A stretch of 64,000 nucleotides of DNA. Origin: Arenimonas donghaensis DSM 18148 = HO3-R19. GTDB taxonomy: Bacteria; Pseudomonadota; Gammaproteobacteria; Xanthomonadales; Xanthomonadaceae. The translations under genes and the position numbers were made by a program. The stretch spans positions 1-64,000 of the forward strand of contig NZ_AVCJ01000001.1 in assembly GCF_000743535.1 (NCBI RefSeq), given 5' to 3'. Shown here one piece after another: positions 61,322 to 64,000 of this stretch (its first letter is position 1; each line of letters begins with the position of its first letter). Under the pieces are notes generated by a model that was not told the origin of the DNA, made no database searches, and saw only the letters and a list, made by a program, of their open reading frames with translations.

Positions 61322-62691
61322 CAGGCGCGCCTCCAGCGTACGCCCTGGGCCGTGTCCTCGAGCAGCACGCCTTCTTCGGCCAGCTGTCGCCGGATGGTGT
61401 CGGCGCGCACGAAATCGCGCGAGGCCTTGGCGGCGTTGCGTTCCTCGACCAGGGCCTGGATGCGGGCATCGTCGCCGGCATCGCCGCCGCGGTTGAACCA
61501 GGCTTCGGGCCTCTGCTGCAGCAGGCCCAGCAGCATGCCGCCGCCAAGCAGTTCGGCCTTGAGGCTGGCGCGGGCGATCGGAGACCCGGCCTTGCGCGCC
61601 TCGGTGGCGATGCGCGAAAGCTCGGCGAGCGCCGCCGGCGTGTTGAGGTCGTCGCACAGGGCAGCTTCCACCGCCACCGGCACGATGGCCTCGGTGGACG
61701 GCACGCCGGACAGGTCGCGCAGGGTGCCGTAGAGACGGTCGAGCGTGCGTACGCTTTGTTCGATGACGGCGTCCGACCACTCCAGCGGCTGCCGGTACTG
61801 GGCCGAGAGCAGCGCATATCGCAGGGCCTCGGGCGGATGTTTTTCCAGCAGCTCGTGCACGCGGGCGACGTTGCCGACGGACTTGGACATCTTGGCGCCG
61901 TCGAAGTTGAGCAGCCCGTTGTGCAGCCAGTAACGGGCGAACACCTGGCCGCCGTGGGCGCAGGTGGACTGGGCGATCTCGTTCTCGTGGTGCGGGAACT
62001 GCAGGTCGATGCCGCCGGCGTGGATGTCGATGCTGTCGCCCAGGTGGGCCTCGGCCATGGCCGAGCATTCGATGTGCCAGCCCGGGCGGCCGATGCCCCA
62101 GGGCGATTCCCAGCCGGGCAGGTCGGGCGTGGACGGCTTCCAGAGCACGAAGTCGCCCGGGTCGCGCTTGTAGGGCGCGACCTCGACGCGGGCTCCGGCC
62201 AGCATTTCGTCCGGGTCGCGGCGCGAGAGGCGGCCATAGTCGGGATAGCTGCCGACCGAGAACAGCACGTGGCCGTCGGCGGCGTAGGCGTGGCCGGAGG
62301 CGATCAGCCGCTCGATCATCGCGATGATGTGCGGGATGTGGGCGGTGGCATGCGGCGTGACGTCCGGCGGGGCGATGCCCAGGCCGGCCATGTCCTGGGC
62401 GAAGGCCTCGGCGAACTTGCCGGTGATCTCGCCGATGGCCACGCCCTGCTCGCGGGCGGCCTGGTTGATCTTGTCGTCGACATCGGTGATGTTTCGGGCG
62501 TACACCACCCGGCCGTAATGGCGGCGCAGCAGGTTGGCGAGCAGGCCGAAGACCACGTAGGGGCGGGCATTGCCGATATGTACGTAGTTGTAGACCGTGG
62601 GCCCGCAGACGTACATCGTGACCCGGTCCGGATCCTGGGGTTGGAAAACCTCCAGCTGTCGGGTCAGGGTGTTGTAGAGGCGCAGTTCCAT
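61321..62691 (-). CDS. cysS: Cysteinyl-tRNA synthetase
   Basis: A 456-residue class I aminoacyl-tRNA synthetase. The zinc ligand C29 in [17 protein letters not shown] is next to the HIGN motif (38-41); other zinc residues are in HIECSAMA and FPHHENE, and KMSKS is at 267-271. ATG 62691 is the natural start; the frame continues upstream without homology into the divergent gene. Length is normal. Confidence 0.97.
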
Positions 62692-62811
62692 GGCGGGGCA
62701 GGCAGTCAAAGTCCTGAGTCTAGCAAGCCAGACCCCCCGTTTAACGAAATTCTTAGGCAAGGGTTCAGCGTCGGGATGCTTGAATTCCGCCGTCCGCCCG
62801 GAGGTTTCCCC

Positions 62812-63378
62812 ATGTCGTTCGCCCTGCGTCTGCTCCCCCTGCTGGCCCTGGCCGCCACCCCGGCCCTGGCCCAGTACCCGTCCGATCCTTACGAGCAGGA
62901 GGATTACGGCCAGTACGAAGCCGCGCCGGTGCCGGAAAACGTCAGCTATGGCTACGCCCAGGTGCTGCGTGCCGACGAGGTGACCCAGATCGTTCGCACC
63001 CGGACCCCGGAAGAGCGCTGCGACGGCGTCGAATACCGCCAGTCGGGGCAGACCACCGGCGGCACCGTGATCGGCGCACTGGTCGGCGCGGCCCTCGGCA
63101 ACCAGGTGGGCAAGGGCAATGGCCGCAAGGCCGCCACCGTCGCCGGTGCCGTCGCCGGCGGTGCCATTGGCAACAACATCGCCCGCAACAAGGCCGAGGC
63201 CGAAGCCCGCGGCTGCCGCATCGTCGAGGTCGAGCGCGAGGAGCGCCAGGTCGTCGGTTACGACGTCGAGTACATGTACAAGGGCGAGAAGTACATGTCG
63301 CGCCTGCCCTACGACCCGGGCAATCGCCTCCGCATCCGGGTCGCTGTGACCCCGGACGAGACCGGCTACAGCCGCTGA
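62812..63378 (+). CDS. Glycine-zipper 2TM (17-kDa antigen-like) envelope protein
   Basis: A 188-residue exported protein with a signal peptide (ending ALA-Q) and a glycine-zipper block [20 protein letters not shown] then [14 protein letters not shown] (about 84-125), the Rick_17kDa pattern that embeds in the outer membrane or peptidoglycan region. The C-terminal part ([15 protein letters not shown]) is an SH3-like end. GGAGG precedes ATG 62812. Divergent from cysS with about 120 bases between. Confidence 0.85.
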
Positions 63379-63379
63379 G

Positions 63380-63408
63380 TTGCGGCCGTGCCGGCCCGCC
63401 GGCATACT
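63380..63408 (+). promoter_or_regulatory. Candidate promoter of the argF' leader
   Basis: TTGCGG (63380-63385) and CATACT (63403-63408) are 17 bases apart. Transcription would start near 63415, just before the leader ATG at 63417, so the leader peptide would be read from an almost leaderless RNA. No ribosome binding site is seen, which agrees. Confidence 0.5.
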
Positions 63409-63416
63409 CCTCCCCC

Positions 63417-63521
63417 ATGACCTGCACCGCCCCCACCGCCGCCGTGATGACCTCCGCCTGGATGGCGGCGGGCATGACCTCGCGTGCGCGTCGACCGGAA
63501 GCCCACATCCACGCTGGGTAG
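63417..63521 (+). CDS. Putative 34-residue leader peptide with Arg codons
   Basis: A short frame ATG to TAG between the glycine-zipper gene and argF'. Residues 22-28 read SRARRPE; the three Arg codons are at 63483, 63489 and 63492. The stop codon (63519-63521) lies directly against the sequence GCTGGG (63513-63518) that can pair with CCCAGC of the downstream terminator. It is too short for homology. The support is position, Arg codons beside an arginine gene, and the RNA pairing; it also has one Trp and two His codons. Confidence 0.5.
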
Positions 63522-63546
63522 CCGGGGGCGAGTGCCTGTCCGACTG

Positions 63547-63580
63547 AAAGCCCAGCCCCGTGCTGGGCTTTTTTGTTTTT
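63547..63580 (+). terminator. Intrinsic terminator / attenuator before argF'
   Basis: Stem AAAGCCCAGC (63547-63556) with GCTGGGCTTT (63562-63571), five-base loop, then a T-rich run to 63580. It stands between the leader peptide and argF'. The upstream GCTGGG (63513-63518) is identical to the 3' arm, so CCCAGC can pair with either one, which is attenuator design. Confidence 0.85.
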
Positions 63581-63608
63581 CGCGCCTCCCGAACCTCCTT
63601 TTCACTCC

Positions 63609-64000
63609 ATGGAATCCCCGATGAAGCACTTCCTCAACACCCAGGACTGGTCCCGCGCCGAGCTCGACGCCGTGCTGGCCGAGGCCGCGGCGTTCCGCCA
63701 GGGCAAGGCCAGCCAGGCGCTGAAGGGCAAGTCCATTGCCCTGGTGTTCTTCAACCCCTCGCTGCGCACGCGCACCAGCTTCGAGATCGGTGCCTTCCAG
63801 ATGGGCGGGCACGCGGTGGTGCTGCAGCCGGGCAAGGATGCGTGGCCGATCGAGTTCGAGCTGGGCACGGTGATGGACGGCGAGGCCGAGGAGCACATCG
63901 CCGAAGTAGCGCGGGTGCTTTCGCGCTACGTGGACCTGGTGGCGGTGCGGGCCTTCCCGAAGTTCCAGGACTGGTCGGTGGACCGCCAGGACACCGTGCT
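63609..64000 (+). CDS. argF': N-acetylornithine carbamoyltransferase (ArgF'), N-terminal part
   Basis: The first about 130 residues are visible; the window cuts the gene. They match the acetylornithine transcarbamylase of Xanthomonas: [16 protein letters not shown], the carbamoyl-phosphate loop [13 protein letters not shown] and [19 protein letters not shown]. This enzyme makes N-acetylcitrulline in the variant arginine pathway. The WPIEF-type segment distinguishes it from ordinary ornithine transcarbamylase. The start is ATG 63609 or 63621; neither has a strong ribosome binding site. Preceded by a leader peptide and terminator. Confidence 0.93.

Follow-up and report, generated by a model that had tools for sequence, protein, structure and literature searches.

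The region upstream of argF′ in Arenimonas donghaensis DSM 18148 very probably works as a ribosome-mediated transcription attenuator of the trp/his type that senses arginine. We examined this region in a window of 64,000 nucleotides (contig NZ_AVCJ01000001.1, positions 1 to 64,000 of the forward strand; all coordinates refer to this window) and compared it with the corresponding loci of relatives. As judged from the sequences, its anatomy and its conservation both show the sequence-level features of a ribosome-mediated attenuator: a short frame with clustered Arg codons, RNA arms with the potential to pair in alternative ways, an intrinsic terminator and, behind it, an arginine biosynthesis operon. 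We found no ArgR in this bacterial family, where the attenuator could be standing in for that repressor in the control of arginine synthesis.

For A. donghaensis, we infer the transcription start, the translation of the leader, ribosome stalling, and the response to arginine, and the switch would operate as follows. Transcription would begin about 2 nt before the leader ATG at 63417, and a 34-codon peptide would be translated from an almost leaderless 5′ end. When arginine is plentiful, the ribosome would pass the Arg-Ala-Arg-Arg codons, reach the stop codon at 63519, and cover region 2, leaving region 3 to pair with region 4 in a terminator that would halt transcription before argF′. A shortage of charged tRNA-Arg would hold the ribosome at CGT/CGA (63489 to 63494), where it would cover region 1; regions 2 and 3 would then pair, the terminator would come too late, and argF′-argG-argE-argB-GNAT-argC-argH would be transcribed. 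If the leader is not translated, the 1:2 helix would form and leave the terminator free.

The novelty lies in the specificity for arginine, in a start that is almost leaderless, and in the relation to ArgR. We found no arginine-specific transcription attenuator of an arg operon in searches of open PMC papers, and the words "arginine" and "argF" do not occur in the main text of PMC2965389. The model would give the RNA family Xoo5 a concrete function, explain possible arginine control in a large bacterial group where ArgR was not found, and extend to arginine the set of amino acids that biosynthetic operons sense through leader-peptide attenuation.

TABLE 1 Features of the argF′ leader region in the window
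Feature	Position	Strand	Remarks
Probable sigma-70 promoter	63380–63408	+	TTGCGG 63380–63385, 17-nt spacer, CATACT 63403–63408; read from the sequence
Predicted transcription start	63415	+	From homology to Xoo5 alone; 2 nt before the first ATG
Leader peptide frame	63417–63521	+	34 codons; ATG 63417, stop TAG 63519
Hairpin CCGCC/GGCGG	63454–63468	+	Pairing is better between own arms than after swapping among genera
Rfam RF02242 (Xoo5) match	63455–63530	+	Model positions 38–112 of 124; 56 bits against a gathering threshold of 50; E = 2.1e-10
Core MTSRARR	63474–63494	+	Near-invariant; inside the last 15 codons of the leader frame
Arg codons of the core	63483–63485, 63489–63491, 63492–63494	+	CGT, CGT, CGA; the last two are the proposed stall site
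Region 1	63495–63505	+	CCGG 63495–63498 and CCCA 63502–63505; pairs with region 2 and its 3′ flank
Region 2	63513–63525	+	GCTGGGT 63513–63519 (spans the two final sense codons and reaches into the stop), plus outer CCGG 63522–63525
Region 3	63550–63556	+	GCCCAGC; partner of region 2 (antiterminator) or region 4 (terminator)
Region 4	63562–63568	+	GCTGGGC; 3′ side of the terminator stem
Intrinsic terminator with T tract	63546–63580	+	Scan finds hairpin 63546–63572
argF′ (N-acetylornithine carbamoyltransferase)	63621–64000	+	First operon gene; NCBIfam NF003384; runs past the window

The leader carries a conserved, arginine-rich frame

The argF′ query matched in 296 of the 297 genomes of the window's family, though in a few it hit only related carbamoyltransferases; DNA upstream of argF′ was taken from 165 of the 297. 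Three loci without a true argF′ (L088 to L090, in genomes G007, G049, and G257) were left out, giving 162 family loci, of which 122 had been chosen by argF′ and 40 by an Xoo5 match (L001 to L030 and L154 to L163). The core was located with a pattern fixing first and second codon positions. Locus L017 was found with a relaxed version of the pattern; only L140 was lost, so it was read by eye and is absent from the counts over 161 loci.

A short frame containing SRARR precedes argF′ in all 162 loci, and the core reads MTSRARR in 160 of them, MASRARR in L017, and LTSRARR in L140. Arg occupies all three core places in 161/161 loci, which puts three Arg codons within four codons. The 34-codon frame with close Arg codons that a first-pass annotation of this DNA had proposed is present in the window, and such a frame recurs across the family. 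Across core codons 2 to 7 of the 161 loci, departures from the commonest letter number 166 at third positions (39, 7, 57, 38, 20, and 5, respectively), all of them synonymous, against a single departure at first or second positions. This three-base rhythm is the pattern of a translated peptide.

Codon choice within the core is also conserved. In 156 of the 161 loci, CGA encodes the third Arg, although no CGN codon is rarer than CGA in the argF′ genes counted (5 of 450 Arg codons in 23 genes, i.e., those of 57 loci tried whose frame was readable by script). Seven coding stretches from the genome of the window use it for 3 of 199 Arg codons. The other residues hardly vary either (Thr2 in 160/161 loci, Ser3 and Ala5 in 161/161 each), while the third positions of their codons do. 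Codon sensing does not account for this constancy, and the peptide itself may have a role.

The frame 5′ of the core is more loosely conserved. Because only MTSRARR is near-invariant, a 15-codon frame starting at 63474 was favored at first. The start at 63417 is now preferred because synonymous conservation extends upstream of the core as SAxMA[A/S]G (161 loci), because an in-frame ATG or GTG lies 42 to 66 nt upstream of the MTS codon in 159/161 loci by raw count, and because the Xoo5 RACE end fits it; in the remaining two loci (L055 and L061), the sequence is cut where the upstream start codon is expected. The frame thus probably starts at 63417, with internal starts at 63462 or 63474 possible. 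The stop codon falls at offset 33 to 48 in 160/161 loci, and at 33 to 36 in 19 of the 161. L140 (genome G168) has lost the leader stop; by eye, its frame reads through the terminator and ends in a TGA overlapping the argF′ ATG.

The motif ATGACCT occurs three times in the leader (63417, 63447, and 63474), and in relatives the two halves of the peptide, LTSARMAAG and MTSRARRP, look as if they arose by an old internal duplication. A tandem-repeat scan found just a weak 15-nt double at 63435 to 63464.

Promoter and transcription start

A consensus promoter scan of the region returned no promoters, the TTGCGG/CATACT pair falling below its threshold. When 159 family loci were aligned on the first start codon and weighted by genus, the upstream columns showed T at −38 and −37 (71% and 64%) and A and T at −11 and −10 (53% and 54%). 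To place the transcription start, we equated position 1 of the Xoo5 model with the published RACE end, as both the model and the published RNA are 124 nt long. In 5/5 loci examined, the first in-frame ATG comes 2 nt after position 1, so that translation of the leader probably begins on an almost leaderless RNA. Evidence against an attenuator, as named in advance, would have been a transcript starting downstream of 63521; the RACE end of Xoo5 in Xanthomonas oryzae (PMC3039613) instead corresponds by homology to about 63415.

The upstream gene (62812 to 63378) ends just before the proposed −35 element, and a protein tail reading DPGNRLRxRVSVTP precedes the leader in many family loci.

The core peptide is shared by four families and apparently replaced in others

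Across the order, 117 of 250 genomes carry the exact MTSRARR pattern, distributed as 54/54 genomes in family f1, 3/3 in f2, 8/10 in f3, 51/51 in f12, and 1/132 in the others; in that lone genome, the pattern is on a different contig from argF′. In 30/30 order loci examined, argF′ follows the pattern at 111 to 248 nt. A scan of named genomes with a longer pattern found at least 119 stretches. The 80 matches listed come from Xanthomonadales (Lysobacterales) or loosely named proteobacterial bins, and argF′ lies 126 to 282 nt downstream on the same strand in 77 of these 80, while the other 3 end at a sequence edge.

Families f4 to f9 present a different picture. In 13 of their 18 readable argF′ loci, we found a short Arg-run frame together with a terminator whose stem is of the CCCAGC/GCTGGG or CCCGGC type; L205 (no argF′ in the piece) and L214 (contig ending at argF′) were excluded. 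For 11 of the 13, an Arg run as good arose in at most 6 of 200 shuffles, while in L209 (26/200) and L212 (46/200), the run is within chance. The other 5 loci showed no Arg-run frame, and 4 of these had no terminator. The argF′ loci without an Arg-rich leader are found in f5 and f9 (L196, L198, L207, L213, and L215). By eye, the peptides of f4, f6, f7, f8, and f9 look unrelated to MTSRARR.

These data bear on a nascent-peptide arrest mechanism, in which the ribosome tunnel would sense TSRARR itself, arginine or a pathway intermediate perhaps serving as the ligand, and the codons would matter only as spelling. The near-invariance of Thr2, Ser3, and Ala5 over varying third positions is of a kind that a sensor of Arg codons alone does not need, and the core is common to f1, f2, f3, and f12. 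We nevertheless consider peptide arrest by itself improbable, because five families combine seemingly unrelated Arg-run peptides with a similar terminator, because the conserved rare CGA is unneeded by a peptide sensor, and because arginine-induced arrest at the Arg codons would regulate a biosynthetic operon in the wrong direction. The turnover of the peptide across families argues that the Arg codons and the RNA arms are what counts. Such turnover behind a similar RNA scaffold is also a natural experiment on whether the codons, the rare CGA, the peptide, or all of them are needed.

A tentative and on balance unlikely extension of codon sensing is a composite sensor acting on a leaderless mRNA, in which the Arg codons and the conserved nascent peptide SAxMA[A/S]GMTSRARR together tune or gate the stall; the ligand, if any, could be arginine or a pathway intermediate. 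Such a sensor would have replaced ArgR in an ancestor of these families, and the outlying families would have kept the RNA scaffold and swapped the peptide.

Alternative helices between leader and terminator

The letters on which the first-pass annotation had built its switch are as it gave them, namely, GCTGGG at 63513 to 63518 and again at 63562 to 63567, CCCAGC at 63551 to 63556 between them, and CCCA at 63502 to 63505. The proposed intrinsic terminator before argF′ was recovered by the scan, which found 3 terminator-like sites in 1.2 kb against 0.7 expected from shuffles. A terminator-like hairpin is likewise present in 161/161 family loci, if doubtfully in L064 and L087. Aligning relatives had been suggested as the check, and both the short Arg-codon frame and the alternative pairing proved to be conserved.

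Three helices are supported by swap and shuffle controls. The swap tests asked how well arms pair with their own partners compared with arms swapped between genera, using one locus per genus, so that deeper shared ancestry stays in. L064 and L140 are absent from the family-only arm swaps, and in the multifamily swaps, 6 of 211 loci had no usable region 2. L230 was left out of alignment A1 (94 sequences, also lacking L064), of the folds, and of the multifamily swaps, as the script found no terminator there, though one is visible.

For helix 1:2, own partners outpaired swapped ones within the family (0/300 permutations in each of 30 draws; 51 genera) and in the wider set (P ≤ 0.0033 in 20 draws; 74 genera), and at least four pairs are predicted in 203/211 loci. 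In one fixed register, 71% of cells pair, a level reached by 0/500 shuffles. By eye, the register varies by sequence class (CCGG..CCGG, CCGTT..AACGG, and CGC..GCG), and we therefore rely on the swap test rather than on the fixed-register count. The pairing of CCCA with the first TGGG, as first proposed, holds within this helix, although region 1 is longer than had been thought, since CCGG at 63495 to 63498 joins in by pairing with CCGG at 63522 to 63525.

Helix 2:3, the putative antiterminator, has seven pairs in the window (63513 to 63519 with 63550 to 63556). In A1, 96.5% of its cells are paired, with 0/500 shuffles reaching this value, and sliding the register by one column lowers pairing to 48 to 56%. 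The middle pair is U-A in 51 sequences, U-G in 10, C-G in 27, and unpaired in 6. Region 2 reads GCTGGG in 141 of the 160 family loci where it was recognized, always at offset 35 to 42, and is not recognizable in L064; in f12, it is mostly GCCGGG, opposite a region 3 reading CCCGGC. The arms of helix 3:4, the terminator, are paired in 100% of A1 cells, with 40 and 37 double changes at two pairs.

As to the covariation of GCTGGG and CCCAGC that had been anticipated, swapping the 2:3 arms among members of the family gave no significant result (median P = 0.11); with f2, f3, and f12 added, swapped arms did as well as true partners in 0/300 permutations in each of 20 draws. A tree-based coupling test on the argF′ tree, which took in 110 of 117 loci (L001 to L087 and L166 to L195), met with too few independent double changes (median P = 0.5). 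On this tree, the middle pair changed eight times in region 2 and nine times in region 3, mostly the same way where both change, and simple coupling is broken in 9 of the 110 loci, 4 of which have a C-A mismatch (L043, L067, L073, and L081).

The few independent changes at 2:3, together with the fact that region 2 is also held through its pairing with region 1, would suit control by leader translation with a constitutive terminator and no 2:3 antiterminator (for example, through Rho-dependent termination or translational coupling), which we regard as very improbable given the 96.5% pairing that collapses on a one-column slide and the persistence of region 2 where the frame stops ahead of it. 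GCTGGG is kept outside the frame in L111, L113, and L152, for example, and its retention beyond early leader stops indicates that the arm is kept as RNA.

Predicted folds bear out the two ribosome positions of the attenuation model. With a ribosome at the second or third Arg codon (mask to 63501 or 63504) and RNA extending to 63560, the first GCTGGG is freed to pair with CCCAGC, as the first-pass annotation had it for a stall at 63489 to 63494, and the 2:3 antiterminator forms (−21.9 kcal/mol) with a small inner hairpin. With a ribosome at the stop codon (mask to 63531), the first GCTGGG is hidden and the terminator forms (−19.3 kcal/mol), again as had been proposed. A ribosome at the first Arg codon (63483) is predicted to leave the 1:2 helix in place, with no antiterminator. 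In folds stalled at the third Arg codon, the antiterminator appeared in 209/211 loci versus 271/633 controls with shuffled spacers; shuffled spacers thus make antiterminator-like pairs in 43% of cases. With region 4 transcribed, the terminator is the more stable structure in all cases folded, even with a ribosome at the Arg codons (−30.7 and −29.6 kcal/mol), and the switch would therefore have to be kinetic. Attenuation in trp likewise depends on timing.

An additional hairpin upstream of the core (CCGCC/GGCGG) passed the swap test with 0/300 permutations in each of 20 draws over 77 genera. Only a few bases separate its end from the MTS codon, and it could act in the timing of RNA polymerase or of ribosome loading.

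The downstream operon and ArgR

The first downstream gene is argF′, scoring 619.6 bits against NF003384 (cutoff, 288; L236:72-1073). In the window's genome it is followed by argG, argE, an argB with an acetyltransferase (NAT) domain, a GNAT acetyltransferase, argC, and argH, the last just under its NCBIfam cutoff in the stretch examined. The switch would thus govern most of the pathway. The GNAT acetyltransferase gene between argB and argC lies at L236:4732-5334.

An Arg leader had seemed unusual in the first-pass annotation, as ArgR would be expected to regulate such operons. That expectation does not hold for the window's family: neither ArgR model, PF01316 nor TIGR01529, matched any of 60 family genomes, the window's genome included (0/60 for each), and each was detected in 9 of 14 control genomes. 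Among the 250 genomes of the order, PF01316 was found in 8, all in family f11, and none of these 8 has argF′ at an E value of 1e-30 or the MTSRARR pattern.

Comparison with known systems

The argF′ leader shares with the enterobacterial attenuators of trp, his, and leu the codons for the end product in a short frame, the helices 1:2, 2:3, and 3:4, a stop codon at region 2, and an intrinsic terminator before a biosynthetic operon. Unlike them, it would sense arginine, its frame probably starts at the RNA 5′ end, it has three Arg in four codons rather than a longer run, its peptide is conserved beyond the codons, and it occurs where the usual repressor was not found. ArgR does the same job of arginine-dependent arg control but is a DNA-binding protein, and we did not find it in the window's family.

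Consecutive Arg codons that answer to arginine supply are also found in orf34/SpeFL before Salmonella speF, but that leader controls ornithine decarboxylase via mRNA structure and decay rather than an arg operon via an intrinsic terminator (PMC6386406). By eye, the SpeFL core HIRRT.HIM is absent from the window's leader, and the downstream gene is argF′, not an ornithine decarboxylase gene. Attenuation on the branch between arginine and pyrimidines has been proposed for Pseudomonas carA leaders, with a leader peptide reported in P. aeruginosa, but it is attributed there to pyrimidines and concerns another gene and organism (PMC4997734).

The leader is the RNA known as Xoo5

An Rfam scan of 62000 to 64000 found no riboswitch or T-box at the gathering threshold; only Xoo5 (RF02242) passed, and ncS035, RsmY, P34, rnk_pseudo, and anti-hemB matched below it. 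By sequence homology, Xoo5 is the leader of argF′, and the leader of about 63415 to 63580 contains it. Xoo5 belongs to a set of eight small RNAs reported from X. oryzae in 2011; it was termed a small noncoding RNA, without a stated function, and its 5′ end was mapped by RACE, with a size of 124 nt (PMC3039613). Northern blots showed bands of about 130 and 100 nt, both early in growth and just the short one later (PMC3039613). Table 2 of that paper places Xoo5 before PXO_00353, which another table there gives as N-acetylornithine carbamoyltransferase; the main text contains no word starting with "arginine" or "leader." The link between Xoo5 and argF′ is thus already in print, but we saw it made explicit nowhere.

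By homology, the published 3′ end of Xoo5 (PMC3039613) lies about 5 nt before the terminator stem, and the Northern sizes are shorter than the roughly 160 nt predicted for the terminated leader. This mismatch needs an explanation such as processing. Discrete bands of poorly matching size are what might be seen if Xoo5 were a trans-acting small RNA lying before argF′ by happenstance, an account that we find scarcely credible given its fixed place (argF′ within 600 nt on the same strand in the 77 of 80 listed matches noted above), its coding-type conservation, and its Arg codons. An additional role of Xoo5 in trans is possible alongside attenuation.

Within the window's family, Xoo5 matches were found in 227 of 297 genomes, in 141 of them above the cutoff. 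Four genomes (G128, G005, G018, and G227) have two Xoo5 matches each.
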